Shown here in pieces: positions 8,518 to 53,937 of a stretch of 64,000 nt of DNA. Within the stretch, counting starts at the first letter, position 1, and each line of letters opens with the position of its first letter. The DNA comes from Antedon mediterranea (Eukaryota > Echinodermata > Crinoidea > Comatulida > Antedonidae), in NCBI RefSeq assembly GCF_964355755.1, contig NC_092671.1:6397001-6461000 (forward strand). Reading direction: 5' to 3'. A model generated the notes under the pieces. That model was not told the DNA's origin. It saw only the letters and a program-made list of their open reading frames with translations, and made no database searches. A program made the position numbers and the translations under genes.

Positions 8518-9499
8518 GGCTGACCTTTGAAAGAAAAACATACGGTAATTAAAAATGTAATTATATTTTAAAAGTAAACCTTTAAATAATAAGCTTGATT
8601 CAAATTAGAATGCATGTAGGCCTAAGTGAAGCGACAATGCAAGTAATTTGACCAGTCATGATTAAATTGAATTAAATTGTGCAATTCGGAAACGAAATGG
8701 AGCCAATTTAAAATACTGTTTTGTTACAGATGAAATCTGTGAGAATATATATTGTGAATTTGAGGCCTGACCTAATAATCAGTATGTGATAGATCTTATT
8801 AAATGTACTAGTGTCATCTTTATTAAATGTACTACTGTGTTATCGTTAGGTAAATTATATTTTTTATTTGTAACTGGAATAAAAACTTTCTTTATATACT
8901 TTCTGTATCTATAAATCTGTAAAAATTATATAGAAATAAAGAGCCATAATATACTGCATTAACTTGAAAACTAAAATTAATTCTACAGCATGCACGGCGT
9001 AGTTGTTTTCCCTTTTTGTTGCTGAAACACAATGCACTAAACAAGAACAAGAAAAGCAGCAGTATTGTAACACATTAACACACTCAATTAATAAATCCCC
9101 TGATCCGAGGCCTAATCTACCTACTACTTCATCATTCTCAAGGCCCTACGTCTGATCAGGCTAGCTTATCCATCCAGACCTAGGTCTACGTCCAGATAGC
9201 CCTCTGTATACGTAATAATTGATAAGCCGGTGTAAGATTGAAATGTGTCCATCATTCAAAAGTGTCCGGGTGGACACTTTTCAGCATTGGATAGTGTCCA
9301 ATTGCATGTTTCAACGGGTTCGCGGGCGTTTTCCAACAATTTAATGCTGTCCGGCGCGTTTAATAATGTCTGACCCTTGGATTGAATACCGTCCGTGGTT
9401 GAGATTTGAGATTCAGGTTTTGATCGTGATTGCGCATGCACTTGTCTTTTTTTAACGACCACTATTTGTTAATAATGCCAAACTAGTTTTTATTTTTCA
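8518..9499. other. Upstream region of lifeguard gene 1
   Basis: Contains a 3' splice site for the gene (coding exon begins at 8524 in the minus direction), so a non-coding first exon and promoter should lie here or slightly further right. I could not fix the promoter. A diverged repeat end at 9222-9296 carries gccggtgtaagatt and the internal palindrome gtgtccgggtggacac. Confidence 0.4.
9222..9296 (+). repeat. Repeat end related, inverted, to 24781-24856
   Basis: Starts gccggtgtaagatt and shares roughly three quarters of its bases with the reverse complement of the 24.8-kb segment, including ttttcagcattg. Probably two diverged ends of one transposon family. No matching target duplication was seen. 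Confidence 0.55.
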
Positions 9500-12400
9500 A
9501 AGATTACTTGGCTTAAAACACCTCCAATTAGCGACCATTATATTATTTGGTATGAATAAAGACAAGAAGAATAAATAACAATATAATAATAATCATGTAA
9601 TAAAAACAAGTAATTATACTGGTCCTCTTCCAATTAAAGAACACTTTAGTTTAGACACTTCCAATTAGCGACCATTTTTATTGTTTTGTATGAGTAAAGA
9701 CAAGAGTAATAATAGTTTTTAATCATGTGACAAAAAACAAGTAATTGTACTGGTCCTCTTCCAATTAAAGATCACTTAAAATTAAACACTTCCAATTAGC
9801 GACCGTTTTATTATTTTGTATGAGTAAAGACAAGAATAATAAATAGTTTATAATCATGTGATAAAAAACAAGTAATTGTACTGGTCCTCTTCCAATTAAA
9901 GATCACTTAAATTTAAACACTTCCAATTAGCGACCGTTATTATTGTTTTGTATGAATAGAAACAAGAAGAATAAATAGATTTTAATCATGTGATAAAAAA
10001 CAAGTAATTGTACTGGTCCTCTTCCAATTAAAGATCACTTTAATTTAAACACTTCCAATTAGCGACCGTTATATTATTTTGTATGAATAAAGGCAAGAAT
10101 AATAAATAGATTTTAATCATATGACAAAAAAACAAGTAATTGTACTGGTCCTCTTTCAATTAAAGATCACTTTACTTTAAGACACTTCCAATTAGCGACC
10201 GTTATATTGTTTTGTATGAGTACAGACAAGAAGAATAAATAGATTTTAATCATGTGATAAAAAACAAGTAATTGTACTGGTCCTCTTCCAATTAAAGGTC
10301 ACTTTACTGTAAGACACTTCCAATTAGCGACCGTTATATTATTTTGTATGAGTACAGACAAGAAGAATAAATAGATTTTAATCATGTGATAAAAAACAAG
10401 TAATTGTACTGGTCCTCTTCCAATGAAAGATCACTTTACTTTAAGACACTTCCAATTAGCGACCGTTATATTATTTTTTATGAATAAAAACATGAAGCAT
10501 AAATAGTTTATAATCATGTGATATAAAATAAGTAATTGTACTGGTCTTCTTCCAATTAAAGATCACTTTACTTTAAGACACTTCCAATTAGCGACCGTTA
10601 TATTATTTTGTATGAGTACAGACAATTAGAAGAATAAATAGATTTTAATCATGTGATAAAAAACAAGTAATTGTACTGGTCCTCTTCCAATGAAAGATCA
10701 CTTTACTTTAAGACACTTCCATTTAGCGACCGTTATATTATTTTGTATGAGTACAGACAAGAAGAATAAATAGATTTTAATCATGTGATAAAAAACAAGT
10801 AATTGTACTGGTCCTTTTTCAATTAAAGATCACTTTACTTTAAGACACTTCCAATTAGCGACCGTTATATTGTTTTGTATGAGTACAGACAAGAAGAATA
10901 AATAGATTTTAATCATGTGATAAAAAACAAGTAATTGTACTGGTCCTCTTCCAATTAAAGGTCACTTTACTGTAAGACACTTCCAATTAGCGACCGTTAT
11001 ATTATTTTGTATGAGTACAGACAAGAAGAATAAATAGATTTTAATCATGTGATAAAAAACAAGTAATTGTACTGGTCCTCTTCCAATGAAAGATCACTTT
11101 ACTTTAAGACACTTCCAATTAGCGACCGTTATATTATTTTTTATGAATAAAAACATGAAGCATAAATAGTTTATAATCATGTGATATAAAATAAGTAATT
11201 GTACTGGTCTTCTTCCAATTAAAGATCACTTTACTTTAAGACACTTCCAATTAGCGACCGTTATATTATTTTGTATGAGTACAGACAATTAGAAGAATAA
11301 ATAGATTTTAATCATGTGATAAAAAACAAGTAATTGTACTGGTCCTCTTCCAATGAAAGATCACTTTACTTTAAGACACTTCCATTTAGCGACCGTTATA
11401 TTATTTTGTATGAGTACAGACAAGAAGAATAAATAGATTTTAATCATGTGATAAAAAACAAGTAATTGTACTGGTCCTCTTCCAATTAAAGATTACTTTA
11501 CTTTAAGACACTTCCAATTAGCGACCGTTATATTATTTTGTATGAGTACAGACAAGAAGAATAAATAGATTTTAATCATGTGATAAAAAACAAGTAATTG
11601 TACTGGTCCTCTTCCAATTAAAGATCACTTTAATTTAAACACTTCCAATTAGCGACCGTTATATTATTTTGTATGAATAAAGGCAAGAATAATAAATAGA
11701 TTTTAATCATATGACAAAAAACAAGTAATTGTACTGGTCCTCTTTCAATTAAAGATCACTTTACTTTAAGACACTTCCAATTAGCGACCGTTATATTGTT
11801 TTGTATGAGTACAGACAAGAAGAATAAATAGATTTTAATCATGTGATAAAAAACAAGTAATTGTACTGGTCCTCTTCCAATTAAAGGTCACTTTACTGTA
11901 AGACACTTCCAATTAGCGACCGTTATATTATTTTGTATGAGTACAGACAAGAAGAATAAATAGATTTTAATCATGTGATAAAAAACAAGTAATTGTACTG
12001 GTCCTCTTCCAATGAAAGATCACTTTACTTTAAGACACTTCCAATTAGCGACCGTTATATTATTTTTTATGAATAAAAACATGAAGCATAAATAGTTTAT
12101 AATCATGTGATATAAAATAAGTAATTGTACTGGTCTTCTTCCAATTAAAGATCACTTTACTTTAAGACACTTCCAATTAGCGACCGTTATATTATTTTGT
12201 ATGAGTACAGACAATTAGAAGAATAAATAGATTTTAATCATGTGATAAAAAACAAGTAATTGTACTGGTCCTCTTCCAATGAAAGATCACTTTACTTTAA
12301 GACACTTCCATTTAGCGACCGTTATATTATTTTGTATGAGTACAGACAAGAAGAATAAATAGATTTTAATCATGTGATAAAAAACAAGTAATTGTACTGG

Positions 12401-12785
12401 TCCTCTTCCTATTAAAGATCACTTTACTTTAAGACACTTCCAATTAGCGACCGTTATATTATTTTGTATGAGTACAGACAAGAAGAATAAATAGATTTTA
12501 ATCATGTGATAAAAAATAAGTAATTGTACTGGTCCTCTTCCAATTAAAGGTCACTTTACTTTAAGACACTTCCATTTAGCGACCGTTATATTATTTTGTA
12601 TGAATAAAGACAAGAAGAATAAATACTAGTTAAGACAAGAAGAATAAATAGTTTATAATCATGTGATAAAAAACAAGTAATTGTACGGGTCCTCTTCCAA
12701 TTATAGATCACTTTAGTTTAAACACTTCCAATTAGCGACCGTTTTATTATTTTGTACGAGTAAAGACAAGAAGAATAAATAGTTT
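9500..12785. repeat. ~132-bp satellite array, about 25 monomers, with higher-order units
   Basis: Monomers contain cttccaattagcgaccgtta, gagtacagacaagaagaata, aatcatgtgataaaaaacaa and aattgtactggtcctcttcc. Spacing of the gcgacc word is about 132 bp. Left monomers (9.5-10.1 kb) are more diverged; the rest are nearly identical. A five-monomer block of ~663 bp recurs at 10201, 10864 and 11790, marked by a tttttatgaataaaaacatg variant, a 4-bp longer acaattagaag monomer and a catttagcg monomer. Both edges degrade. No coding. Confidence 0.95.
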
Positions 12786-13530
12786 ACTTGTTTAATCCCC
12801 AATCAATTAAAAGTTGCACCTTTTTATAATCAACACGATATAGCTGATCTCTTGAAAAAACATAATCAGTTTTACTGAAGTATTATGTTAATTGGTACAT
12901 TGATCGTCGCATCGAGAATATGGTAGGGGTGTCACACTATGTGCGTCTAGGGTGAATGCAAAGATAATGACATCGATATAGCGCCACATCAACACGTTTT
13001 TATGCACCTTTGGTGTAAGTATTTATTTTAGTATTTTGTCCTTAAATCAGAATTTATATTCAAAGAAAAAATGACTTGTTATGTAAAAAAACAACAATTC
13101 GGTATCTGGAATCTTAAAATTAATGTATCTATAAAAATAATTAATATGGGATAGGCCTGAGACCTCATACATTTGTTAATAGGGCTACTTTATTGAACCT
13201 TCATTTTATCGGATGTTATAAGAACGCTTGCTTCAACCGATTCTTTTTTTGAACAGCATTTTGTTTAAAGGCGATTGTGTTATTTTCAATGTTTAATAAA
13301 CTTCTGGAATTTCAGAGAAACCCATTTTAATAAACAAAAGCTTCTTATAAAATGTGCTTACTGGATAATGTTTCATACATGTTTGGCTGGTTCAAATTTA
13401 CTTTACTTTTGCTTTTCCGCTACTCCCCTGTTATACTATATATTTGTTGTTATGTAGAAAGATTGAAAATAAATTCATTCATTCATTCTTCTTTTATTTC
13501 GGAAAAAAAAAATTCTCCATAGTTCAGTAA
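12786..13530. other. Intergenic, with a LINE-type 3' tail near 13380-13497
   Basis: No gene seen. The segment ending in attgaaaataaattcattca plus ATTC repeats resembles the 3' end of a CR1-type LINE on the plus strand. Confidence 0.4.
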
Positions 13531-13562
13531 CAAGTGTACATTATTGTAAATATAACAAATAC

Positions 13563-13568
<6 letters not shown>

Positions 13569-13643
<75 letters not shown>

Positions 13644-13656
13644 AAATATAACAAAT

Positions 13657-13738
<82 letters not shown>
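13569..13738. repeat. (TA)n microsatellite in two blocks
   Basis: Two long TA runs (about 13569-13640 and 13660-13738) separated by tgtaaatataacaaatacac. The unit just before the first run, tgtaaatataacaaatacat, is the same spacer, so the block looks locally duplicated. Confidence 0.97.
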
Positions 13739-13741
<3 letters not shown>

Positions 13742-13812
13742 GTTCCAACCGTACCACGCCGAGAATGTTAAAGGGTCGTTATCCGGTCGAGTTAAAGAAC
13801 AATACCATGAAA

Positions 13813-13884
13813 GCCCTAGTGGTCTAATGGTTAGGGCAACTGCATATCAAGCCGACGGTCCGAGTTCGAGCCTCGGTTGGGGCG
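13813..13884 (+). tRNA. tRNA-like unit, copy 1 (probably pseudogene or SINE head)
   Basis: Same fold as the second copy (A and B box, cloverleaf-sized), but the acceptor stem has a mismatch and the anticodon stem ACTGC/GCCGA pairs poorly. A T5 run follows shortly. Flanking sequence (cgtaccacgccgagaatgtt before, accgggcggttt after) matches copy 2, so the two form a ~270-bp tandem duplication. Confidence 0.5.
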
Positions 13885-14083
13885 ACTTTTTCTCATTCTC
13901 TCAGATTTCCTCATCTTTATCGTTTCAAAAATTAATTAAATCATTTTCAGTGTATCACCGGGCGGTTTGGAATTTATTTCTATGCCTGTTGTGTTTACAA
14001 CTGAGGACTAGTGCTGTTCCGCCGTACCACGCCGAGAATGTTAAAGAGTCGCTATCCAATCGAGTTCGAACAATACCGTGAAA

Positions 14084-14155
14084 GCCCCAGTGGTCTAACG
14101 GTTAGGACATCTGCATATCAAGCAGGCGGTCCGAGTTCGAGTCTCGGTTGGGGCG
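14084..14155 (+). tRNA. tRNA-like unit, copy 2, anticodon read as ATC
   Basis: Acceptor GCCCCAG pairs with TTGGGGC; the D arm has tggtctaacgg (A box); anticodon stem TCTGC/GCAGG encloses ATATCAA, giving ATC at positions 34-36 (Asp, GAU); the T stem CCGAG/CTCGG encloses TTCGAGT (B box). All stems are paired. The ATC anticodon is unusual, as eukaryotic tRNA-Asp normally has GTC, and the D arm looks tRNA-Glu-like, so this may be a tRNA-derived repeat rather than a decoding tRNA. No T-run terminator immediately follows. Confidence 0.5.
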
Positions 14156-14239
14156 ACTTTAACTCATTCTCACAGATTTCCTCATCTTTATCGTTTCAAA
14201 TTAATTAATTAAATTTCAGTATATTACCGGGCGGTTTAG

Positions 14240-15294
14240 AATTAATGTTCTATGCTACATAGTCACGTGGTTAGAACAATAGCTTCATCCATCTACTATG
14301 TAGATTGGATGAAGGAAAAGCAAATTCATGAATACATTACAAATAAATGTATGAATTGTGAATTACAAAAATATTAAATGTTGTTGTCTTGTCAGAATGA
14401 GTTGTAAATATGAACGAGTTTTGTAAACATAAATTATATATCATTGATCATTACTTATATTAACAGGATAAAATAATAATAGTGTAATGATAATGAACAA
14501 TAGTTACAGAAAAATATTTATTTATTTATTTATTTATTGCTATTAAAACTTGTTTCAGTAAGTGTGTTTGTATTTATTTTACTTTGTTATTGATCATCAT
14601 TGGTCTGGCTACCAATACATTGGAAGCACGCAAGCCTCGCTACCACGTCAAGGTTGATGATCATAGCGAGGGTAGGTTGCACGTTTGTATGTGCCCCTTT
14701 GACCAAAGAAAACATATTATAGAAGAAAATTGCATAACATTATGAAACAGAATCATATGAGTTGTAAATATGAAAAAGTTTTTTAAACATAAAAATACAA
14801 TAAAAATAAACACTATTTACAATCTAATTCACGTACTTTTACCTTACCGGACCTTTAGTCGCGTTATTCTTTTATACAATCTGCTTTTTAATTAATTTTT
14901 TAATCCTTGTAGCGATCAAAGCAGGGCGCATGACACATCATTGCATGTTTACACTGGACACACTGTATTTGATCTGTTGTTATCTGCCATTAGACCCCTT
15001 GAGCCTTTGACGTACTTATGCTCAGATATTCGTCTTCTGTTGATTCAATGAAAGATGGTGACGCTTTAATTAGCCGCTGTGGTGAATCTATGTTCTTCTT
15101 TCTGGTCCGACAAATGCAATTGGTATTTCTTCGTCGATGAGTTTCAGACAAAGCCGACAATCTCCTCTTGACGGAAGCACCTGTAAAAAATCAAAGCATT
15201 AACGAAACTTACCTCTATAAGGTAAACAAATACCCTTTTCACCATTTAATGCTTCTGTGTATGTTGAGATTACCGGTCATAGGTAGGCCTACAG
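14240..15294. other. Intergenic, AT-rich
   Basis: Holds a short (TTTA)n run near 14517-14537 and a 40-bp segment with gagttgtaaatatgaa present twice (14399 and 14759). No gene or clear TIR recognised; it should contain the 3' UTR of the integrase-OTU gene. Confidence 0.4.
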
Positions 15295-18200
15295 TTAAAG
15301 AGTGACGTTGTATGAATCAACATATAATTGTCCAGGTACTTCATTGTTGCTCTGATGAATCCTTTCCGGGAAATGTTCCATGTCACAAAGCAAATTGAAT
15401 ATATTTGGATCGATATCATCTTTTAGATGGTTGACTGCTTCAATGTCATAATGTGTGTCCGTGAATTCAGATACGTATATAACGTCCATAATGCCTTCGG
15501 AACGCATTACCGCTTCATCTTCGTAATTATCTACCAGAGCAGCATTGAGGGTCACATCGGATACAATATCCCAGTATTTCCGTGCAAGGTGGTTTTTGAT
15601 TGGTGCGTATGGTGTACGAGTGTATTTTAATTCAGCATCATAAGCTTTCTTGTCTACATCCAGGACAGGCTCAAAGTGTGCACATACGTTTGATAGGTAG
15701 ATGTTTCTTTCAGATACTAAATCACCAAACTGATTACTTATTGGTGCATATTTCAACCATTCATAATGTGGAAGCCCTTTCCTTCTTCCATATTTACTGT
15801 AAACATAAACATTCGTATTTGACATGGTCGCAAATGCCATGATTTCGATGTCCGAACCCCATGTCCCATATTCCCCCATTCTCGTGTCTTCCACGTATCG
15901 TTCAAATGATCTGGATTCAATTTTTTCAAATAGGTTTTTGTTCATGGACATATAGTTTAGTATGTAATCCCGTACAACTACATGGTAGTTCTGGACACCA
16001 AAGAGAATATAACTCAAAGCCCTAAAAAGACAGTTGCCGTCCCCTCTCATATTAACAACTTTAGTAGGCCTGGCTGCCTTGTCCATTTCACATTTTAAGT
16101 GAGTTTTGTGAAAATTTTTGACATTGATACCAAATGGTGCTGCCTTTTCAAGCTGCCAATTGGCATCGACAGGAAAGAATAACTTTCTTGAAGTTTTCGT
16201 GTTGAGGTATACCACATCACTATCAGATACAGGCCTACTGTTGTCATGGTCATCATCCGGTGCGACATTATCATTGTCTAATGTAGGTATGTTATCGTGA
16301 TTATCCAGTGTGATATCATCGTTCTTGGATGTAGGTATGTTAATGTGATCATCCGGTGTGATATCATAATTTTTGGATGTAGGTCTGTTATCGTTATCAT
16401 CAACATTCTTGGATGTAGGTATGTTAATAATGTGATCATCCGGTGTGATATCACCATTCTTGGATGTAGGTATGTTATCATGGTGCGTTACTTCAGGTGG
16501 GATGTCTGGCGTTCGCTTTCGTTTCTTTGGAGGGAGATGCTTATCATTGGTATTACATTTCTGTTTAGTGCTTGATGATGGACAGTTCAAAGAGGTTGTT
16601 TTATCGGACTTGTAATGTCTGATCTTGTTTCCGTTAACAATAGCCCTTCTTCCTTTTAGTCGATATGTATTGTGAGTGAGGACTTTTTCTATAATATATG
16701 GACCAGTCCATCGAGCATTAAGTTTGCCTCCCTTTCTTGACAAATTTCTGGAATTCTGCAAGAGCACTTGATCTCCTGCATAGTACGTGTTGCTTTTAAC
16801 ACCAGCATCATGATAATGTTTTTGCTTTTTCTGTGCTTTTTTGATATTTTCTGATGCCTTTCTCCTTGAATCTTTGAGTTTCAAAAAAGCGTCCACTCTT
16901 ATTTTTAAAGGAACAGTTCCGGATATGTCATCTTTATTAGACGAAACGATGGGAATACGTAATTCTACAGGCAACACAGCCTTTCTACCGTAAACTAATG
17001 AGAATGGGTCACATTTCGTAGACTTGTGCTCGGATGTTCTGTAGGCAAACAACACGTATGGGAGTTGTATATCCCAGTCATTTTGGTCTGCGTTGGTCAA
17101 CGTCATAAGCATTGTGCAAAGTGTTCTGTTAAAGCGCTCCGTTTGCCCGCCTGTTTGAGGATGGTATGGTGAGGCAACTCTGTGGTCTACCCCAATCAGC
17201 TTACAGAAGCTGTCATTCAGCTCATTACAAAACTCTCTACCCTGGTCTGTAATCAATATAGAAGGTGTTCCATGTCTGCAGACAAAATCAATAAAAGATC
17301 TCAGCACTGTTTTAGCAGATTTATCTGGAATTGCATCAGCTTCCACCCATTTGGTAAGATACTCCGTAAATACAAGTAAGTACCGATTACCTGAAACACA
17401 GCAAATAGTAATATAATAAGCCGTAATAATAGTAGTGTCAAAATGTCATGATGAGATGTACAACACCCGAACTGTACGAATGAAATAACAATAATAATAA
17501 CAATATTAATATCAATAAATATAATAAGAACAAGAACAATAATAATATCGTGGATTTACATAGCGCCTAATGTTGTAAAACCTCTATGCGCTGAACAGTA
17601 TTACCCCAGTCATGGTTTGGATCAAATTAAAACAGGCAGAAATAAAGATTATTACAGTATAGCCATAATCGATGTAAATCCGGTGACAATAATAAGAGCA
17701 TCTGATTCTTGGTAAATCTAGTTTTTGTTGACAGTGTAAAAAAGAGAACTGTCATAATTTTAGTTTAGTTAACAATTTCAAGAAACCTCACAGAAATTGC
17801 GCTTGTGCCTTTACAATAATAAATTTAAGTTCAGCCCTATTACAATAAAGGCCGAACAGAACTAATTATTAACTGTAATTTTAGGCCCTGAAGAATGAAT
17901 TACAAAGTTTTCTGAACGTATTTCATTCATGTCTTCTTGCTTTTTACTTTTACGTTTTGATTTAGCTTTTTTATCCAGTCACAGCATTTTTGTTTTTCAG
18001 TAATTTGTCATGAGATACCTTACCATTTTCTGTCTTTACCAAAGGCCCAACAATATCCATACCGATCTGTCTGAAAGCAGTATCTGTTACGGGTATAGGT
18101 TGAAGTGGCACTTTTGCTTTTTTTAAAACTTCTTTCCGTTGGCACTGATCACAGGCGGCTATAAAATTACGAACACCATCAAATGACCCCTTCCAATAAT

Positions 18201-21115
18201 ACCTTTCGCGTATCTTTTTCCAACTGTTAAAAAAAAAAAAAAGTGTTTATTGTATTGATGATATTCAATCTCTTTGTAGGTTTACTATTGACCTTAAAAC
18301 TGTATTATGGATTCTTTAAATATTTTAATTTTATTTTGTTTTTTAATATTATTTATTATTTATTACCGCAGTTCACATCACCATTCTCATCAATGCATTA
18401 TAATAACATTACAGTTTGGCGTTCCATATATTTTAACTTTTCGTTTAAGGCAAGCACTGGGCACAACTGATTAATTAACTTTTAATATTTATCTATGTTT
18501 CTAGTTTTTTTATTTGACAATGATAAATGAATATTGAAAAGGGAAAAGATACCTTCTATGAAAAATGTCCATCAGTCCGTGATGATTCCGTGTCACATTG
18601 TACCAGGGAGATTTACATCTCCCTGATTGTACCGTGTTTACATTCTAAATACCCCCATATAAACTTCAAATTGAGTGCAGCCTCCCATACAAAATAACTA
18701 CGCCCTCAATCTGGTAATAATTCACTCAGGCAATAAAAAACTAACTTGAAAAGTATAAATAATTAATTGTCCTACTAGAATTATTGTGTACGCTTGGTGA
18801 ATGTGCGACAGAGTAGATATAAAAATCGCCACTTTTTTAAAAAAATAAACAAGGGGAAATATATACGTTTTAACACTACATACTGGTTAAATTTATTTAT
18901 TTTTAAAATGTAGAGGACACCCTATTAAGGAAACCGGGTACTTTTTAGTGAGCCACAATGGTAGATTGCGAGAGGTAGTGGTCCTTTAAAATAGGTGGTC
19001 ACTTACGAAAGATGTGGTCGATAAGGGAGGTGGTCGCTTACGATATGTGATCGATTATGAGAAGCGGTCTCCTAACAGAGAGGTCGTTTATTAGAAGTGG
19101 TCACTTAAGAGAGGTGATTTATACAAGAGTTGGTATATTATGAGAAGCGGTCCATTTAGAGATATGGTGGTCTTCTAAAAGAGATCATCACTTACGAGAG
19201 GCGGTCGAAAATAAAAAGCGGTCGCTTACGAGAGTTGTGGTTGTTAAGAGAGGTGGTCGCTTACTACGAGAGGTGGTCGATTATGAGAAGCGGTCCATAA
19301 TGAGAGGATGTGATCACTTACAATAGTTGGTCGATTATGGGAAGCGATCCCTTAACAGAGACGATGGCCGTTTAATAGAGGTGGTCACCCAAAAAAGTTG
19401 TCGTTACGAGAGAGGAAGTCGATTATGAGAAACGGTCCCTTAAAAGAGTTGGTTGCTTACGATGTGTGGTCGTTTTAGAAAGTTGGTCGGTTACGAGACG
19501 TGGATAGATGGATAGCTAAGTAAACAGATGCATTTGCACATGATTTAGACATTTAGGTTTGTAAAATATATATTTTCTACATTAGCTGGCGATAGTCCTA
19601 CATTAGCTGGGATGCAATTTTCGTTCCTACATTCGTTGTTGATCGTTCTACATGGTGTTAATTTTTTTCATTACATAAGCTGCAGGTGGTTTTACTCCAT
19701 TACCGGGGGATTGGAAACTAGTTTTGTTATTGAAAATGCGTTTTTTTTAAAGAAGTATTCCCTAAAAAAAATGTAATAATCCACTTTAAAGTTACATAAT
19801 AAAAGTCTTCTTCCTTACCTTTTTTTTTGTCAAATTGTGTTTTCTTTCATAAGTATACATTTTAAATGAACGAAAGTTAATACTGATATGGCTTTTTGCA
19901 TTATGAATGAGCAACTAATATTGAACATATTTATTATACCAAGACCTGAATAAGTTTTCATTCGGGAAGTATTTGTATCACTATTTAAAACTAAGATATC
20001 TCTCATGAGGGATATCTCTATATTACTTACTTACCAAGATATTTAGAATGGAAGATTCTTGTCCCATTCGGAATATCACAAGTGGATTTTTTTCTGTGTT
20101 AGTTATGCAGTGGGCACGTGTAGAGTACCGTATATGAACTGTTATAAAACTAAAACATTACTATTATAGATAGAGCTAGTTGTACTGTATTCTTCTTGGT
20201 TTTTCGAGGTGTAATAAGCCTACAAAAAAATATCTATTAACATAGATATTTCTTTTAAAAAGTAAGACATCTTAGTTTTCAATTGAAATAATCTATCTTT
20301 ATTAAAAGAGATATCTTAATTTTGAACTAAAGATATATGCGTTGTGTAGCACTGTGTAAATTATATAATAATAATCTGTCAAATTATTGAAACAGTGCTC
20401 ATATTCGGAACATTTTTGATTAATTATTGAATGCCAATATATGTTTTGTATTTTTTACATGTGATATTTTATGTTCAACTTCAATATATTTATACAATTA
20501 ATTGCGATAATATATTGAGTAGAAATTATTATCGACTTAACATATTTTTCATTCATGGAGGTATAAAAATATGTTTGAATCTATATATAAAATACTAACT
20601 TCATAATGTACACGGTCATTATACATTTTTCAATTGATAAGTATTAGTTATTATTCATTTAATTCATTCATTTAATCATTTGTTTCGAATTCTGTGGTCC
20701 ACAGAAAGTAAAATTACGTATAAAATCATTTAAAAACAATGCTGTACTAATTACTAATACTCATCTCAGGATGGCATTCCACCTGGCCAAACATATAAAC
20801 AGTTTTAAAGTCACCCAGAAACTTATCGAAGCTTAAATATTATTTAATTGACAAACTTTAAACTTACGTTTTGTTGACACCCAAGTGACCACCATGTGCC
20901 TGCTTATGGATACTGTTTAACACTTCGTTTTTTTCTTTCGGTAACAATACACGCAACAATCTACCAGAATGTTGTTTGTAATACAAGATATCACGAAGAA
21001 TTGTAAAGTTCTTGGCTTTCCGTCGCAAACTTCGTTTTAATATTTCAGAATAATTTACAGGATAAACGTTGTTTTGTAGATAGTTTCTCAAGGCATCAAA
21101 CTCATGATCGGCCAT
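15295..21115 (-). CDS. Integrase-type transposase fused to OTU protease domain (Ginger-like)
   Basis: Three minus-strand exons, 20868-21115, 18024-18223 and 15295-17390, join in phase across GT/AG introns to 847 aa. In order: HHCC zinc module (His70/74/77, CxxC at 107/110); integrase core with Asp139, Asp198 (ITDQGREF) and Glu234 (GGQTERFNRT), spacing D-58-D-35-E; GPY module near 379-381 (ARWTGPYIIE); an NLS-like PPKKRKR near 436-442; degenerate Asp/Asn-rich repeats with IPTSKN about 455-530; OTU domain about 594-730 with Asp600 and Cys603 (GDGNCLFRAL) and a candidate His721 (CAHFEPV). No reverse transcriptase, RNase H or LTR is visible, and there are introns, so a Ginger1-type cut-and-paste transposase fits better than a Gypsy polyprotein; some Ginger elements are, as I recall, known to carry OTU domains. 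The reading frame is uninterrupted. Activity and element ends are unknown. Confidence 0.85.
17525..17700 (-). repeat. SINE tail fragment in the integrase gene intron
   Basis: Words ataataatatc, catagcgcctaatgttg and gcgctgaacagtattacccc match the 3' part of the SINE at 43293-43590. Probably a truncated copy on the minus strand. Confidence 0.5.
18940..19690 (+). repeat. GGTGGTC minisatellite plus tail: one arm of the foldback family
   Basis: Loose ~20-25-bp tandem units built on gagaggtggtcgcttacgag and gattatgagaagcggtcc, followed by tggatagatggatagctaag and acattagctgg words. The same succession forms both arms of the foldback at 22660-23640. It lies in the first intron of the integrase-OTU gene. 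Confidence 0.75.
19975..20335. repeat. Imperfect inverted repeats built on aagatatctc
   Basis: actaagatatctctcatgag near 19992 and agagatatcttaattttgaa near 20308 are imperfect inverted copies, with further copies between. Likely a degenerate MITE. Confidence 0.4.
20640..20790 (-). repeat. LINE-type 3' end, copy 1
   Basis: Reverse complement contains caggtggaatgccatcctga and an AT-rich tail ending in (GAAT)-like repeats. The same sequence recurs in the opposite orientation at 60655-60785. The parent element is not in the window. Confidence 0.5.
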
Positions 21116-22655
21116 AATGATAATAAGTAAAAATAGAAAGAAGGCAGATTGTAACGAACAACACCGTGATTGGAACTTTGCAAGCAAAGTGAATGATTTT
21201 TTAAATGTAGGAGGTTTTGAACAAACATTGAGCCAATCAGCTTCTTGCTACATTTGTTTTAACCAATTGCCGATTAGAAGAAAGAGCAAACAGTTTTGTC
21301 AGGTGTAGGCCTATAATTTAAACTTTGTGCCTTAAGTGGATGTCACGAACTCCTTTTACGTATGTTTCCGAGCGGTTGAAAATACTTTAGAAACTCCCTT
21401 GTGACATAAAAGTATACACACCAAATTCACAAAGTTGTAAAATAACTCAAAAACAAATCTTTAATTTCAATCAACTTCAACTTTCAACAACCCAGTAAGC
21501 ATTTTAAACAACAGCTTCACAATAACTTTTACAATCTAATATCCAACCTCTAATATCCAACAACATGACAATAGTTTTACATCCCTTTATATACAAGATG
21601 TTCCTATCCTTCTATATCATTCTTTATACTTCTTATTCTATTTGATTACAGTTTCTATTAATAGCATACTGGAATGTTCCTGATTGTTATTATATTAATT
21701 ATACATGATGTCTTAAATGTAAACATCTTATTCTAGAATGTTCATGGTTAGGGAATGGTAATTTATTACAGTGGCAAGTACACAAAAAATGAGAGAAAAA
21801 AACTATTGGAGGGAAATGCCATTTATTAAATTAAATTTCGAAGATACTCTTATTGGTAAACGCTTCAGTCGTTCTATTACACAATAAATAGCACATTCAG
21901 ATAGGAGTATAAAATATAATCATATAGTTATTCTTTATTACATATTATACGTTCATCTCAAATTATATTATAATATTAATTGAAATTGTATTTAAATTTG
22001 TATCCGTTTTTGTCGACAGGACCACAATGCAAAACAAGTATATTTCTACTTGATTGTGTATAATCCTGTATAAATATGTTGTTAAATAAATAAAATAATA
22101 TTAAATAGTAATCTACGTAAAATAATATTATAGTACATAAGTTCGTATTAAAACCGTTCAGGCTATGAGGCAACCCCCGCTCCCTGTATATTAAATAGAA
22201 ACATTTTTTATAATACTTATACTAGAATCATATACTAATTTATTTAGTTATTTTTTAAAATAAGAGAATTAAATTACGTAACATACTGTGGTATATAATT
22301 CTTGTAATGAAATCATATTCATGGTAAGCGTAATCTTAATTTGAGATATGGCAAGTTCGCACCCCTTCTCCTGACAAATAACAGATGACAGTTAACACGA
22401 CTACCGGTAATTAATATCTCCCGAGAGCCGCTGTTTTGAGGTTGACCTGACAATTGTGGCCTGAGTTATGGGACATTACCCTTGCTGGACATCTGGTAAA
22501 AATAAATACTGATTATGCTGCCACTTTAGTACACAAAACAATAAATAAAAAAAAATAAAAAAACACAACTTGTGGCATTTCCTTTACACTAGTCCCTGTT
22601 CAAAACCGCTAGTGTAGAAAACGGCAGCAAATGTCGTCGAAACTGTCAAATCCAC
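21116..22655. other. Upstream flank of the integrase-OTU gene; no gene seen
   Basis: AT-rich and should hold that gene's promoter and one transposon end. I found no inverted partner for 14.2-15.3 kb by eye. Confidence 0.35.
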
Positions 22656-22659
22656 CCAT

Positions 22660-23640
22660 GTAGTAAAACCTAGAACTAGCTAATGTAGAAACACCAACAG
22701 TTATTTATTAAATAAAAATCAACATTAGCTAATATACAACTTAACAGGTAATGAAGTAACGAAAATTGCCTCACAGCTGATGTAGTTAATATCGCCAGCT
22801 AATAAAATAATAATTATATATTTTACAAACCTAAATGTCTAAATCATGTGCAAATGTATTTCTCTACTTAGTTTAGCTGTCAGTCTATCCACCTCTCGTA
22901 AGTGATCGGCTTTCAAAACGTAGCACTCTGATCGTAAGCAACTACCCTTGTTAGCGACCACCTTTAATATTTAAAAGGGACTACCTCTGTTAAAGGACCG
23001 CTTCTCACAATGGACAACTTCCTGAAGGGGTAACCTCCTCTCATAAGGGACTGCTTTTCATAAACTACCACCGCTCGTAGACGACCACTTCTTTTACCGA
23101 CTACACCTCCCGTAAGTGACCACCTCAATAGAGGTGGTAATTTGCGAAAGGTGGTCGTTACGGATGGTAGTCGATTATGAGAAGTGGTCCCAGTGGAGAG
23201 GTGGACGTTTTTTTTTTATAGAGAGGTCGACACTTTAGGCGTGGTCGTTAAGAGAGGTAGTCCGTCATGAGGTTGATTATGAGAAGCCGAGGTGGTGGTC
23301 CTTTAAAATAGCTCGTCCTTGACGAGTGGTGTGGTCGTTAAGAGATGGTGGGCGATTATCAGAGACGGTGGTCGTTCAATAGAGGTGGTTACTTACTAGA
23401 AGTGGTTGTTGGTTGGTCACTTACGAGACGTGGATAGATGGATAGCTACCGGTAAGTAAAGAAATGCATTTTCACATGATGTAGACAGGTTTTTAAATTA
23501 TACAATATTTTCAACATTAGCTGTGAGGCAATTTTCGTTACTACATTATCTGCTGACCGTTCTAAATTAGCTGGTGTTGATTTTAAAAATTGATACATAA
23601 GCTGTTGGTATTTCTGGTATTAGCTGGTGGTTTCTATGTT
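22660..23640. mobile_element. Foldback element with ~480-bp arms
   Basis: The left half reads, in reverse complement, as GGTGGTC minisatellite then the gatagatgg/acattagct tail; the right half is the same succession forward. The centre is at about 23129 (ccacctcaatagaggtgg). Outer ends are near aaacctagaactagctaat (about 22667) and attagctggtggttt (about 23620). No coding. The single arm at 18940-19690 is the same family. Confidence 0.75.
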
Positions 23641-24285
23641 TATATGTCCATATAAAACAAAAATACAACCGCGATTTTTTAAACTCAGCTGCATGTACAG
23701 ACATTGTGGCAAAGACGTTTTAAACGCTTCATTTCAATATAAGCCATTATTCTATGAATTTGATGTATAACGGTATTGGACTGTTTGTATTGGGAACGAA
23801 ATACCCTAATATTCGAAAAAAACAAAAAACCGAAATACCCTTGAGTGAACGAATAATTATGATGCGCAATTAAGGTGTTTATTTTGCCATATAAAATATA
23901 AAAAACAAATATTTTTTGGTAATATGCATCAACAATATTTTTCAAATGTATTTTAGATAAATAAATAAATAATGTAAAGTCTCTAGAAACAAAGCAAATA
24001 TTGTGACTAACCAATTCAATGTTTTATTAAATAAAAACAAAAATCAGGCATCTGTGAAAAAAATATAATGAAAAAGAACTGACTTTAACAATGACGAACT
24101 TACTTGTTTAAAGAACTTTTGTTATCAGTTGATATTATTAAATTAGTAGCAGTATTATGGATATTACAAAATAATATTTTGAGAACTGAAAAATATTTTG
24201 AGGGAACGAATATATTTAGGGAGAACAAAATAAGATTTCAAGAACTGAATAATATAAAAAACGAATTACTACTTCGAGACAAGGA

Positions 24286-24355
24286 ATGATGATGATGATG
24301 ATGATGATGATCGAGAGAACGAAATAATTTCGAGGGAAATTATTTCGTTCTCTCG
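24286..24355. repeat. (ATG)n run and perfect 20-bp-arm hairpin
   Basis: (ATG)n spans about 24287-24310. Directly after it, cgagagaacgaaataatttc (24312-24331) and its exact reverse complement (24336-24355) enclose a 4-base loop. A wider inverted pair, cgaattactacttcgaga and tctcgcgaagtagtaattcg, surrounds both. Confidence 0.9.
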
Positions 24356-24780
24356 CGAAGTAGTAATTCGAATTTCGAATGAAATAATATTTCGAGATAA
24401 CGAAATAGGTAGGCCCTATGCCTATATGATTTAGTGATATTCATTCCCTCGAAATAATAATACAGTAGGCTATATATTTTTCAAGTTGTCGATTTACTTC
24501 AAATTGACAACAGGTTGTATATACTCAATCAAAAACAAACAATTTAATTTGATTAGACTATATGTCTCCAGATATAATAATAGTAATATTTATTTCAATC
24601 CACTTGATATTTTGCGATTCAAGTTGGTATTCTAAGGAATTATAATTACCCTAACGGGAGTTGGTGAACGTCCAGTGCCCTAGTTTTTACGGGGTTAATA
24701 TGATGTCGATGTCTCGATGGTCCTACTTTTTTATCGATGAAAGCTGCCCGGGTGGTTGCGGCCATTTTCAACAGCTAGTA

Positions 24781-24856
24781 TTACAATATTCAATGCTGAA
24801 AATTGTCCAGTGGACACTTTCAAACACCGGACAGATTTAAATCTTACACCGGCCTA
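24781..24856 (-). repeat. Repeat end related, inverted, to 9222-9296
   Basis: In reverse complement it begins gccggtgtaagattt and shares ttttcagcattg and gtgtcc words with the 9.2-kb copy. Likely the end of an old transposon. Confidence 0.55.
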
Positions 24857-25142
24857 GCCTTTATTGTTTGTTGGCCTACGTTAGTAGTGTTTCTGGCATA
24901 AATATGATAGAATATAACATACATTATAAACAGAATAATTAAATAAATTTTCCTACTTTGTTTTCAGATCCGTTTTCAACTAAAATAAGGTGTTTTTTAC
25001 GATTGGACTGCGAAACGTTTTCTGGAAGGAAAAAAATACACGGGTCGGCGGCTGTGAATATTTGGTTTGGCCGAGGCCGCGCCCTCACACGTCAAAAAGG
25101 TAAATTGGTATATCATTATGGCGCGCCGAAAGTGTCGTCTGT

Positions 25143-25304
25143 AAAGCTCTGTCTACACTATCAAACTTTATGTGACAAAAAAATGTGATGTGCCCATATA
25201 TGGACATGATGATGTCATATCACTACCATACTTGGGCATATCACTACCATATTTGGGCACATCACACTTTTTTGTCAAACTAGTTTGATAGTGCAGACCA
25301 GGTA
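25143..25304. mobile_element. MITE family A, near full-length copy
   Basis: Begins aaagctctgtctacactatc, contains gtgatgtgccc, catatatggacatgatgatg and two atcactaccatattgggc-like words, and ends gtttgatagtgcagacc. Confidence 0.8.
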
Positions 25305-26352
25305 GATACAGAGCATAGAGCATGATTTACTAATAATTATTTATTTGGATCTACACCTTTATATCGGTTTGACAGGGCAGACTATAGTACAAAGGTGTAT
25401 CCTTCAAAATAAACAATACAACATTTAAAAAAATTAACAGAAGTAATGGCAAAAAGCAAGATAAAGAATACAATAAAAAAAACACATAAACATATTATTA
25501 CACATTATAATTAAAACAACTAACCCACTCAACCCTGCCTGATCCAACCCCATTCATTTTAGTACTTTTTACAAATATATAATTTACACAAAAATTGTTC
25601 ACACAAATTTCCATGCTCGTTTTTTAAGTACAAAAACTATTTAACAATTCCCACTCTTTATCAATAAAAGATCTGAGCATCACAAAATATATTTTTCATT
25701 TTCATAAGATGTATACAATGTATCAAACAGCTCTTTGTTACCACTTTGATATGACGATGTATAAATAAATAATTCTGCATTACTACAGTATAATACAATT
25801 GAGGACGAAATGACAAACAGGCAATAGAAGCGTCCCATACTAGCTGTACGACAAAAAGAAGAGCTAACTGGAGAGGGCGGAGCAACATGCAATTGCTTCC
25901 TTCTTGAAATTTCAATTTGTAAACAGGGCGAGTGACGTGAACGTGCACGTGTATACAATAATTGGTAAACCATTTTAACTGGTTATTTTGGTAGTGTAAA
26001 TAAATTATGTTTAAAAAAAATCAATTTGGACATGTATATATAGGCCTAGTTAAATCCTAGATAGCAAGGGTAGCACCTACTAGTAGTAGGCCTAGGTTTA
26101 TTAGGATTATTGATAGACAGACGATCGGGGCGGCAAGCCAGGACCGGACGTGGGGTCTAGGCCTACTAGGCCTAGTCTAGGGCCTAACTAATAATATCTA
26201 TCTAGACCTAGCCTACTTACTTCTACTATAGCCTAGTAGAACAAGAATATGCCCAGTAACTAGCTAGGGCCTACTACACAAACTACACTAAACAACTTGA
26301 TCAATGTCCTTATATTTTTTTTATAGGTGTGTGTGACCATTTTCAGAATATA
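25305..26352. other. Upstream region of the RRM gene, probable promoter
   Basis: The part from about 25870 carries gggcggagc and a ggcgagtgacgtgaacgtgc stretch with CRE/E-box-like words, then TAGGCCTA-rich sequence. Splice-acceptor-like tracts (ttttttatag, ccattttcag) stand just before the ATG, so the first exon may be non-coding. A minus-strand open frame of 97 codons (25680-25973) resembles nothing I know. Confidence 0.4.
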
Positions 26353-27664
26353 ATGACTGAACAAACTGAGAAGAATTCAGCTCCCATGCCAAGTCGAGCA
26401 GAACGCCGACAACAGTGAGTTCTGGATGACTGAAGACTGAGCAATTATCAAATGTTCTTGCCTATTTATTAATGATTAAGTTGACGTGTCACCAGTGATG
26501 TACATTAATCCATTTGCTAATGACATTTGTTAAAAGTAGAATTGAATTTCTAAATATCATTTCCTATTTATTTTTTTTTTGCTATTATTAGATGGTGGTC
26601 TGCAAAGAAAAAAGAGAATGCAGATGGAGAGGAATCAACAACACATACGGAGATTGAATCAAAAGTTGAAAGTAATTAAATATTCTGCATATTCTGTCAT
26701 ACTAGACTGATTCTGATATGAATTTAAATGGAAAGACTTTAAATGAATTTAGTGCGATTAACATAAGTAAAAATGCAGTGTGTGATATCCGATTAACAAC
26801 AAATTCCAGTACAAAATTAATATTTATTTCATTTTTGCTTTTAGATAACAAGAAAGTGAAACATGAAGGTATGGTGAAGAAAAGTCATAAACATTATTGC
26901 CTCTTTATTGGTAATTTACCATATGGTGTAACGAAAGAAGAAATAGAAAATCATTTTGAAACAGCTGGTAAGATTCTTAATAACAATATTTAGTTTATAC
27001 TACAAAATGTATGACATGTTTCCATTACGGTATTTAAACCAGGATTTTGAAAGGGCCTAAAAGTAGTGAAATGAAGTCCTGAAATTAATTTGTAGGGCCC
27101 CCCCCCCCCCCCGATTGGTACAGTATATTGTGAATTTTGTTCCAAAAAAGATTGGTTAATAGGAAATGTTTGTTCTGAATCAATGTAGGGGAATAACATT
27201 TAAAAAGTAACCGATTGAATATATATATTTCAAAATCTTAGGAACCGTCATAGCTGTAAGGCTAGCTACAGAGAAGGCAACGGAGAAGCCTAGAGGATTT
27301 GGTTACATAGAGTTCAAGACATCATCTGAATTTATGGTAAGTGATCAGTCTTAGTGTTGATGGATTTGATCAAAAAAACAGGAGTGTTATGGGGGGAAAT
27401 AAACAAATAAAGGTTCTGTTCGTACTAGTTATTTACAAATACAGTATAACTTTGTACCTACCCAGCAAATGTTGTTTCTTTCAACAGAATGCTCTCAGTT
27501 TACACCACACAGTATTAAAAGGAAGGAAGATAAATGTGGAAATGACAATGCCTGGAAAGGGAACAAGTCAAATGAGAAAGGAAAGGCTAAAGTGGAAAAA
27601 TAAATCAATGGATAGATTTAGGAGAAAAAGAACACATGGCAATCAAGGTGGTGGTCCGAATTGA
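26353..27664 (+). CDS. RRM protein resembling fungal Nop6 (predicted nucleolar RNA-binding)
   Basis: Five exons: 26353-26414, 26592-26671, 26845-26967, 27242-27336, 27488-27664, all GT/AG and in phase, giving 178 aa. Residues 1-60 are charged. One RRM follows at about 65-140 with RNP2 CLFIGNL (66-72) and RNP1 RGFGYIEF (106-113). The C-terminal tail is basic: LKGRKINVEMT, then MRKERLKWKNKSMDRFRRKR. The RRM followed by a GRKINVE motif and a lysine-rich tail resembles yeast/fungal Nop6, a small-subunit ribosome biogenesis factor, so a nucleolar rRNA role is inferred from that alone. The start is the first ATG after a splice acceptor. An AATAAA lies ~100 bp past the stop. A poly-C run interrupts intron 3. 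Confidence 0.85.
27106..27122 (+). repeat. Poly-C run
   Basis: About 15 consecutive C in the intron between RRM gene exons 3 and 4. Confidence 0.9.
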
Positions 27665-27761
27665 GCAAAGATTCAGAAAAGATGACAGTGGTAGCATTTA
27701 TTTGATAAACTATAGTCTGTATAGTTACAATTCATACAGAATTGATTAACTACTGAAGTGA

Positions 27762-27767
27762 AATAAA
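27762..27767 (+). terminator. Polyadenylation signal AATAAA of the RRM gene
   Basis: AATAAA about 98 bp after the stop codon, in an AT-rich 3' UTR. Confidence 0.65.
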
Positions 27768-27920
27768 TGAAAACAGATTTATTTAAGAATTAATGGTGAT
27801 GTCAAATTTTAAAAAATGAGCAGCTTTGTCATTCTAGATACTGTTACTGTATATCTGAAAGTTTGTCAGTCAACCAAAATGGTAACAGTTTCTGGTTGCT
27901 TGAACCTAAAAGCGATTCGA

Positions 27921-28785
27921 ATAGAGAGAAATAGCGAACCGCGACGACGTCACTCAAATTTCACCGAGTGGGTAGATTGTAAACAAACCATTTTGCCACA
28001 TGTTTTTGTATGGGAAATTCCGATGGGTTGAGTTAAAAAGGAAGGTAGAAAAGAACGTTTGAAACACACATATAATAGCAGTATCTTTTTTTTGCAACAC
28101 CCTTAACAATTTTAATGTTATATGGGCAAAATCTTAACATATTTTATTTTAATTTGGATTGAATTAAGACCAGTTTTTGTTATATACTGTACCCAGCTCT
28201 AGGCCCTAGATAGTTGGCCTGTATGCTGTAGTACCTCGAGCCTAGCACGGATTATCGGTTATTATAATAGTAATAATAATAAGTTATTGCATACTGTACT
28301 ACTACTACTACTACTTTAGCTAGGGTGCTGCTAGGCCTCTCCTAGCTAGGTAGTAAGACTAAATAGAGCATCTCTAGTAGATTTAGGCCTAGCATTAGTT
28401 TCAGCTTGACAACTGCCATTTTGTTATGTGGCTAGTGATGCTTCCTGCAAGGGGGGGGGGGGGGGGGGGGCTACCGCCAGTAATGAATACTTGATAATTA
28501 ACACCATTCTACTATAATACTATAGGCCTAGTCTAATGTAGACCTACAGATATGAGATATTTTTAGGAATATGATTGTGAATGATGGATGACTTTTATAC
28601 ATATTTCATTGTTTTATTGTGTAAATACACAAATACAACAAGAATTATGAGCGTTACAGCAACAACATTGGTTAGACGACGCCATGATTCACGTGTATAA
28701 ACATAGGAAATGTGTCGCCCTCAATGGTTTGTTATGATTTTATACCCACTCGGATTTTAGACGTCGGTTCGCCATTTCTCTCTAT
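27921..28785. mobile_element. TIR element ~865 bp
   Basis: atagagagaaatagcgaacc (27921-27940) is inverted at 28766-28785 with one mismatch. Pairing continues through cgagtgggta/tacccactcgg and caaaccatt/aatggtttg with small indels, arms ~70 bp. The interior has (TAC)n at about 28298-28315, a G run of about 20 at 28451-28470, and TAGGCCTA words. No gene; outer ends approximate. Confidence 0.7.
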
Positions 28786-29648
28786 TATGTCATTTAATTT
28801 AGCAGCATTAAAGTTCAAACTACTCATGAGGACAAATTATGTGATCTGCTAAAACCACAAAAATGAAAGAAATCAGTACTGCAGATTCTGCAACAGGCCG
28901 GTCACATTATTAATGAGTATATTTTGGGAAAATGTCAATGATTGTGTACGTGCTAAAATTAAAAAACAAAATATATTCACTTCATAATTTATTTGATTGT
29001 TATCAAAGACATGGAATAAGATTTGGAATGGCTAGTATATCAGTGGGCATATTGGTTTGTAGCAACAAGGTCACTTCCACACAGATTTACTACTGTACAA
29101 TAATAAATTGTCCATTTTACAATCAAGTTGTAAGCTTGTTTATTCTATTATTTGTTTGGCTGCGACAAAGTAAAAAGATAATAATTCTACAAAAGTGTAT
29201 ATTGGCAGTAAATTTTATGTTTTATTCTACATTGATATCTGTCTAACATACTGCACACCTTACTGCAAATCTAAACAGGCCAAAAGTAAGCTACAGTATT
29301 AATTTTGTGAAGTTCATTAACAAATAATGGTCATGTTTCCTTTTAGTGTATAACAAACTCCATGTTTTCTCATATATGGATTGATAAATGTCATTAATAA
29401 ATACTGTATCCCCCAAGACTGTTCAAAGTCTACAAACACTGTATGCTTAGACTATATATATTGTGTGCTAAGTTGTACTGTATAAAATTAATAAACATCG
29501 GCATATAAAAATGAGGAAAGAAATGGGTGTTTTTTTGCCCTTTACAATTGTTATACATTATTATGTCTGCATGCTAGCCAAGCTTCTACAGTTGTCTTGT
29601 TTTGAGTTTTTTTAATTCGTTTTACCATTCTTCGTTAACTACTCGTTA
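28786..29648. other. Intergenic between the RRM gene and the NACA 3' end
   Basis: AT-rich, no convincing gene. RC of tttaat near 29608 could serve NACA as an ATTAAA polyadenylation signal. Confidence 0.35.
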
Positions 29649-35398
<5,750 letters not shown>

Positions 35399-36785: not shown

Positions 36786-37751
36786 TTAATTAACAACATA
36801 AATGTCATTGGCTATCTGGTGCCACAGATTGTAAAACGGCGAGACGCCAAATCTCTCCGACCACATATATTCTGCAAGATACTCGGGGATCAATTCTGGA
36901 TTAGTTGGCCCTTGTTGCGCTTTCATTTGAGCCTTGGCTCTAGACCACATCGACTCTACTCGATTTGTGCAGACGCCTGTCGCTGGATCAACAAAATGTC
37001 TTTGGTGATTCACTGTTCCATGATCGAATCCTCGATTTTGGATTTGATTATATGCAGCCCATCTGTCCGTCCAAATTGTTGTTCCTGGAGCAACCCACTG
37101 ATGAATGATTGGCAATAATGTTGCAGCATCACGCCGCTCAACTTCTACCAGAAACCCTTTTTTACGTCCTTGTTCATATCCACCAAAAACCCATCTTTCG
37201 GGTCTCACTCTTCCCACGTTGTTTTTTCTCCTAGAAAATAACGATTCGTCCAATTCGACAATTACTCCAGGTCCTCCAATCAGTTCCGGATGGTTGATAA
37301 AATATTGTACACAAATGTCTCTGCAAAACTGCTTCCAGTCTACAACTGTATGCTCCGACATGCACAACTCTTTCATGATTAAATTTTGTGATAAGCTCCT
37401 CGCTTTTCCTGCACCAGTGGACCATATATAGGTCAGACCTATGATCTGCCATAGCTGCAAATGAGAGCCAGAAAAGAATGATCCATGTCTTATATTGATC
37501 ACTTTTCTGCAGTTTCTTTCCGGACATCGCCAGCAAACTCTGTCTATGGAACTATCTCTCGGCTGTTGTTGGCAAATAGCATTACAACGTGGACAGCTCA
37601 TGCTAAATGCTAGCAACCCATACCGGCGGCACCACGCTATTGTGGCATCTACGTCGTATTTGAACCTGTGGCCTATTTCAATTAAACTTATTGAATTGAA
37701 CTCATCTAATTCTGGTAGAATAGGAATCTGCGGTATTGGAATAGCAGCCAT
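36786..37751 (-). CDS. Merlin-superfamily / ISXO2-like DDE transposase (single exon)
   Basis: Intact 321-aa frame from ATG to stop. An N-terminal zinc ribbon shows CPRC (53-56) and CWRC (73-76) plus Cys81. The ISXO2-like (IS1595-type) catalytic core follows: Asp168 (VIVELDESLF), Asp229 (TIWTDRWAAY) and Glu266 in the signature NRVESMWSRAK. The RPERWVFGGYEQGRKKGF block is typical of the family. Merlin elements are the eukaryotic relatives of IS1016/IS1595. The gene lies inside the ~3.2-kb spacer of the NACA-promoter inverted duplication. An intact triad suggests recent activity, or retention as a host gene. Confidence 0.92.
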   Translation of the reverse strand: MAAIPIPQIPILPELDEFNSISLIEIGHRFKYDVDATIAWCRRYGLLAFSMSCPRCNAICQQQPRDSSIDRVCWRCPERNCRKVINIRHGSFFSGSHLQLWQIIGLTYIWSTGAGKARSLSQNLIMKELCMSEHTVVDWKQFCRDICVQYFINHPELIGGPGVIVELDESLFSRRKNNVGRVRPERWVFGGYEQGRKKGFLVEVERRDAATLLPIIHQWVAPGTTIWTDRWAAYNQIQNRGFDHGTVNHQRHFVDPATGVCTNRVESMWSRAKAQMKAQQGPTNPELIPEYLAEYMWSERFGVSPFYNLWHQIANDIYVVN

Positions 37752-53833: not shown

Positions 53834-53937
53834 CTGTATAAGAATAAACAAAAACATGATCTGTAAAATGAATGTAATAAAAAGTATGTGGAAGAGAACA
53901 TTTCAAATGATTCTAAATTGATTTTTCTTTGGTGACA

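Follow-up and report, generated by a model that had tools for sequence, protein, structure and literature searches.

An integrase–OTU fusion gene of the crinoid Antedon mediterranea as the very probable transposase of an outsized Ginger1 transposon with an OTU-deleted lineage that has spread

The stretch of Antedon mediterranea DNA analysed here (64,000 nucleotides, referred to as the window) contains an intact gene that fuses an integrase to an OTU cysteine-protease domain, and a first-pass annotation of the sequence had proposed that it is either part of a full Ginger element or a domesticated gene. The locus thus raises the question of what the gene belongs to, and what an integrase might gain from a protease of this type. 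On the first point, we concluded that it very probably encodes the transposase of a Ginger1 DNA transposon that is complete, has been mobile recently and spans positions 9231-24848; this high confidence concerns identity alone.

Joining the minus-strand segments 21115-20868, 18223-18024 and 17390-15295 afforded an 847-aa frame without a stop codon, in which both introns are GT-AG and lie in phases 2 and 1. Exon 1 (20868..21115) comprises the start ATG, a YPYY-like stretch and the first half of the zinc finger, exon 2 (18024..18223) the end of the zinc finger and the first D of the DDE triad, and exon 3 (15295..17390) the remaining DDE core, the GPY motif, a KKRK patch, PTSKN repeats, the OTU domain and a post-OTU extension. 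Intron 1 (18224..20867) measures 2,644 bp and carries degenerate repeats inverted relative to 22675-23125, and intron 2 (17391..18023) measures 633 bp. Pfam analysis of the product returned Integrase_H2C2 (5e-17), rve (3e-11), OTU (1.5e-10) and zf-H2C2 (1e-6), all above cut-off. The three-exon integrase–OTU frame of the first-pass annotation was thereby borne out, and every motif that it had named could be located in the 847-aa product: the HHCC residues of the H2C2 finger (H70, H74 or H77, then C107 and C110), the catalytic spacing D139-58-D198-35-E234, GPY at 379-381 (by direct reading of the protein), the NLS-like PPKKRKR patch at 436, four PTSKN repeats at 456-501, which are underlain by a DNA repeat of period 48 at 16252-16479, and C603 within GDGNC together with the candidate H721. 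For the YPYY comparison, in which the published alignment is a figure, Y18-P19, F37 and YY45-46 were found upstream of the zinc finger at the expected place. The extent proposed for the unit, 15295..21115, stands for the gene, whereas the element itself is larger.

A protein search revealed an A. mediterranea protein of 863 aa (P0001), encoded by another copy, with 100% identity over 98% of the query, the model of which adds a fourth exon behind another intron of 159 bp. The same splice sites are present in the window, with exon 3 ending at 15340 and exon 4 at 15180-15088, and this four-exon version likewise yields 863 aa with three residue differences from P0001. Judged from the sequence, the window gene may have four exons instead of three, the possible fourth (15088..15180, minus strand) adding 30 codons and a stop as in the public model of the sister copy. 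Among the copies compared, the H514L change of P0001 was found in L012 alone, so that P0001 probably derives from this copy. A Cys-rich stretch past the stop (~14.9-15.2 kb), which we took to resemble a piggyBac tail, was rejected as such, as Pfam was blank for its three pieces and one of them is the possible exon 4.

Comparison of positions 8000-15294 with the reverse strand of 21116-30000 revealed one match that was by far the best, 9226-9297 against 24853-24783 (72 columns, 81%, E 2e-9), followed by A/T-rich runs at E 0.04. Its score of 54.7 bits compares with a maximum of 36.2 in shuffles of the right side, of which 198 out of 200 produced some match, and the match extends exactly into CCGG at either end. 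It delimits a complete Ginger1 DNA transposon of 15,618 bp with the ends TGTAA...TTACA, and a terminal inverted repeat (TIR) of ~67 bp starting with TGTAA fits the Ginger1 criteria (TIR ~40-270 bp, TGTNR ends). The left TIR (9231..9297, plus strand, TGTAAGATTGAAATGTGTCC...) lies on the gene's 3' side and the right TIR (24783..24848, minus strand, ...GGACAGATTTAAATCTTACA) on its 5' side; they are flanked by CCGG target-site duplications at 9227..9230, the position of which relative to TGTAAGATT is the same in other copies, and at 24849..24852. The ends had been expected within 14.2-15.3 and 21.1-22.6 kb, where no significant TIR was detected; the true ends lie ~5-6 kb (left) and 2-4 kb (right) outside these stretches. 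The long inverted repeats at 18993-19682 and 22675-23125 enclose exon 1 but consist of degenerate minisatellite-like DNA, and were rejected as ends; positions 22750-22942 also match, in the opposite orientation, intron 1 of other copies.

Between the left TIR and the gene lie a 132-bp tandem (satellite) array of ~24 units (9499..12782, plus strand), which is present in other copies too, an (AT)n run (13559..13738) and two tRNA-like units on the plus strand, at 13741..13985 (tRNA-like gene 13813-13884) and 14015..14255 (tRNA-like gene 14084-14155). These units stand in tandem at 13741-14255, measure ~245 bp each and contain one intact tRNA-like gene apiece (40 and 56 bits) with the predicted anticodon ATC. 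Array and tRNA-like units were seen in several other copies (for example L009, L010, L011, L022, L024 and L025), in a comparison that covered different parts at different loci, and some of these parts are missing from L023 and L017. Beyond the element, the window contains an open frame of 1028 aa that encodes the endonuclease and reverse transcriptase domains of a non-LTR retrotransposon (30437-33523, plus strand), a stretch with a NAC domain of the nascent polypeptide-associated complex type (34257-34622, minus strand), an open frame of 325 aa with a transposase domain of the ISXO2-like (IS1595) type (36786-37763, minus strand), and stretches encoding Kelch repeats and a BACK domain (50032-53961, minus strand) that are probably exons of one host gene.

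Further copies were located by end searches and by the OTU codon pattern, for which 100 of its 139 places, reaching as far as contig C7, were listed; the resulting numbers are lower bounds. All 17 listed places outside the window with its exact OTU codon string turned out to be copies of the element, 16 of them with 99.4-99.9% identity to the window across 4.9 kb and one, L023, with 97% across 2.9 kb. The left end was found at at least 41 places (40 of 141 candidates scored). In 30 left ends cut out, including that of the window (L038), TGTAA is preceded by CCGG 29 times and by ACGG once, a count biased toward CCGG because the query itself contained CCGG; the printed left flanks are mutually different, save two with a common short CCGGCATGGTGCCGG stretch. 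Right-end positions were forecast from the body of 16 copies, a set that excludes L023, and the end was present in all 16, giving element lengths of 13,027-17,244 bp. As these ends lie within a few bases of the forecast, the copies' counterpart of 21.1-24.5 kb has nearly the same length as in the window, and length differences of the 132-bp array may account for part of the 13-17 kb size range. Matching 4-bp duplications flank 15 of the 16 copies on both sides (14 CCGG, 1 ACGG), L020 being the one without a match. In addition, a 531-bp derivative (L047) retains both ends and CCGG on either side. With TIRs, CCGG duplications and many copies in differing flanks, the full Ginger element suggested at first pass is confirmed, and Ginger1 elements that exceed 13 kb and enclose a satellite array have evidently moved.

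The genome also holds related sequences. At G000:C3:16362791-16387032, two elements lie almost end to end, a copy of the type with a 97%-like left end stopping 15 bp before copy L018. A related subfamily has ends 97% alike and is mostly shorter (~3.6-5.2 kb by paired end positions, e.g. G000:C4:33182380-33187614). Furthermore, L002, L003, L004, L006 and L008 carry another OTU codon string, GGTGATGGTAATTGT, which is frequent among the listed pattern matches; these places match the window's OTU region at only 28-32%, indicating a second multi-copy OTU-coding family in the animal's own genome.

Reading the 17 other copies revealed a broken or shortened frame in nine. Exon 3 retains the full frame (847 aa) in eight (L010, L012, L014, L015, L021, L022, L024 and L025), and its first stop otherwise lies at 643 in six copies, at 648 in L017, at 773 in L023 and at 159 in L016. 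Exon 2 is stop-free in 16 of the 17, with one stop in L017, and exon 1 was covered only in part for most copies. Among the copies, L023 left out, exon 3 showed 5 synonymous and 9 non-synonymous changes at a site ratio of 1 to 3.75, and comparison with L023 gave 12 synonymous and 14 non-synonymous codons. These counts suggest constraint but are small, so that selection is weakly tested by them.

The intact frame with its introns and the weak purifying signal against the diverged L023 are features that a domesticated host gene would also display, that is, a gene like Gin-1, Gin-2 or Imagin through which the animal uses the integrase–OTU protein for its own purposes. This alternative from the first-pass annotation is nevertheless contradicted for the family by the TIR and CCGG duplication on either side of the gene and by the many near-identical copies at different sites, every one of the 17 further loci listed for the window's OTU codon string being such a copy, and we consider it very improbable. 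A remnant of a Gypsy LTR retrotransposon that has lost its reverse transcriptase (RT) would in turn explain why the integrase is close to that of Ty3/Gypsy, the best matches to solved structures being the integrase part of Ty3 Gag-Pol (1.7e-26) and PFV integrase. However, neither RT nor RNase H was found by Pfam above cut-off in the gene product and ten chosen open stretches of the element; one of the ten gave DUF2768 at E 5e-4, below its cut-off, and the longest open stretches besides the exons encode an AT repeat in one case and 112 aa in the other. Long direct terminal repeats were likewise not found around the element, and neither RT nor LTRs were seen in the parts read of the 17 loci, so that the annotated lack of both holds as far as searched.

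The relationships of the protein point in the same direction. Among the best 120 of 400 relatives found, Pfam detected an OTU domain in 19, of which 18 lack an RT domain and one, P0031 from a lancelet, has one, a combination that speaks for a Gypsy origin. A tree of the integrase part was built from the window and 114 of the 120 proteins, labelled by their Pfam domains; the six rows dropped for short overlap (P0004, P0006-P0009 and P0017) are all OTU proteins. The window falls into a clade of 25 rows with an SH-aLRT value of 100, which unites all 13 OTU rows of the tree, the sole Ulp1 row, nine unlabelled rows and two RT rows on long branches, and 68 of the 70 RT rows, P0031 among them, lie outside. 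The gene thus clusters with Ginger1 stand-ins (OTU and Ulp1 proteins rather than Repbase Ginger1 sequences) and apart from Gypsy. This position, together with the 4-bp duplications at the TIR ends of other copies, leaves the Gypsy remnant a very improbable explanation. As a separate observation, P0031 (Branchiostoma lanceolatum) is named GIN1 and combines RT, integrase and OTU domains; a Gypsy-type polyprotein can thus carry an OTU as well, and its name misleads.

Turning to the protease, the solved structures closest in sequence to the protein's tail are OTUD5 (1.8e-9), OTUD3 and OTUD1, and an AlphaFold model of aa 540-847 built with 18 homologues (mean pLDDT 86.5) has DUBA/OTUD5, OTUD1, OTUD3 and viral OTU proteases as its best PDB matches. 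The catalytic Cys and His of OTU deubiquitinases are present in the predicted fold as C603 and H721. Among 18 aligned OTU proteins, a set that includes P0001 from the same family and excludes P0014 (no OTU domain by Pfam), all 18 retain C603 and 17 retain H721, while the remaining one has no letters at the latter position. This conservation would reflect long-term selection for catalysis, and the OTU domain is probably a working deubiquitinase. An LPxKKRK-like, NLS-like patch occurs in 9 of 19 alignment rows, and the post-OTU extension of ~110 aa in 10 of the 18 OTU proteins (P0001-P0009 and P0017, P0001 being of the same family).

Six sister copies (L009, L011, L013, L018, L019 and L020) nevertheless share one common deletion of 15391-15913 (minus strand), 523 bp that encode the second half of the OTU domain including H721. 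In the predicted product of 643 aa, H721 is lost, whereas the integrase, the KKRK patch and C603 remain. Exon 2 is stop-free in all six, and their exon 3 stays open up to codon 643. The gap was rejected as a removed intron, since its junction is not GT-AG. A whole-genome search for exact matches returned the junction at exactly six sites, the same six copies, which differ by 0-3 substitutions over 4.9 kb. A tree of this neighbouring 4.9 kb, a region without the deletion, groups them as one clade (97/96); the program itself rates its bootstrap values as rough, and 94% of 200 bootstrap trees retained the group. The sequences flanking the six are different, and CCGG duplications match on both sides in five of them. 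The simplest account of these sequences would be a single deletion event, after which the broken copy inserted at least five times. A second, independent deletion of half the OTU (14157-15929) was found in L017.

As an OTU-broken copy has moved repeatedly, OTU catalysis is not required from the copy that moves, and the continued spread despite OTU loss weakens an essential role. The first-pass annotation had proposed that the integrase could use its own deubiquitinase to remove ubiquitin from itself or from chromatin during transposition; the general form of the idea had already been put forward by Bao et al. (2010). For the integrase part (H2C2, DDE, GPY), we infer as its most likely function the binding of the TGTAA... 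inverted ends and their joining to CCGG sites, and strand transfer would, following from the family, be of the integrase type with a 4-bp stagger at CCGG. With regard to the OTU, we lean slightly towards a function in trans, in which it would remove ubiquitin from the transposase, chromatin or repair proteins and act as a good shared among copies.

A different reading, which concerns the role of the OTU and not the identity of the element, is that the domain is no longer active in transposition here and is being lost, the truncated 643-aa transposase moving itself. The single origin of the six closely similar deletion copies, their duplications, their open exons and the independent loss in L017 would all agree with this. 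On the other hand, intact copies are present and could provide the full transposase in trans, the catalytic residues are conserved in distant relatives, and L017 is uninformative on self-movement due to its stop in exon 2; we regard self-movement of the truncated protein as possible, though rather unlikely. The corresponding wider view, that Ginger1 is here shedding its deubiquitinase and that the OTU serves as an accessory in host conflict or damage control without belonging to the transposition machinery, is similarly tentative. Compared with these readings, provision in trans is the one we prefer. Six near-identical deletion copies beside intact ones constitute a ready-made natural experiment: as intact and OTU-broken versions coexist in one genome, nearly identical and recently mobile, the role of the OTU becomes testable with matched natural proteins.

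The architecture itself is already known. Ginger1 transposases with H2C2, DDE and GPY/F modules, OTU or Ulp1 C-termini and 0-4 introns were described by Bao, Kapitonov and Jurka in 2010 (PMC2836005), with Ginger1-1_AC and Ginger1-1, -2, -3 and -11_HM as OTU-bearing members. Their text suggests a function of the protease domains in transposition or repair, but leaves open for what reason proteases that cleave ubiquitin or SUMO are attached to some DNA transposases. Titles and abstract openings under open licence, which include a review of giant transposons (PMC6431247) and a report on Troyka (PMC12440569), contained no earlier report of the present element or of an OTU test; a prior Repbase listing is possible.

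In comparison with known systems, the OTU domain shares the GDGNC...H motif and the predicted fold with OTUD5/DUBA, OTUD3 and OTUD1, but is fused to an integrase and followed by the ~110-aa extension. Gypsy/Ty3 integrases resemble the protein in H2C2, DDE and the following region, which align to Ty3 Gag-Pol, and differ in that the present element has TIRs, with RT, RNase H and LTRs not found in it. Gin-1 and Gin-2 (PMC2836005) and Imagin (PMC12863088) are Ginger1-derived integrase genes with introns as well, but are described in these sources as host genes, in contrast to a mobile multi-copy element with ends and duplications. The closest likeness is to the OTU-bearing Ginger1 elements of PMC2836005: a single transposase with H2C2, DDE, GPY/F and a C-terminal OTU, introns that are nearly all GT-AG (two in Ginger1-1_AC), a TIR of ~40-270 bp with TGTNR ends, and 4-bp duplications of CCGG or CCGT/ACGG. 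Table 1 of that paper lists Ginger1 lengths of ~2.6-7.1 kb, so that the element described here (15.6 kb, copies 13.0-17.2 kb) is about twice as long as the longest, the listed range being typical of the group rather than defining. Besides its crinoid host, it is this outsized length, the internal 132-bp satellite with the tRNA-like units, and the spread of a lineage with a 523-bp deletion in its OTU that set the element apart as new.
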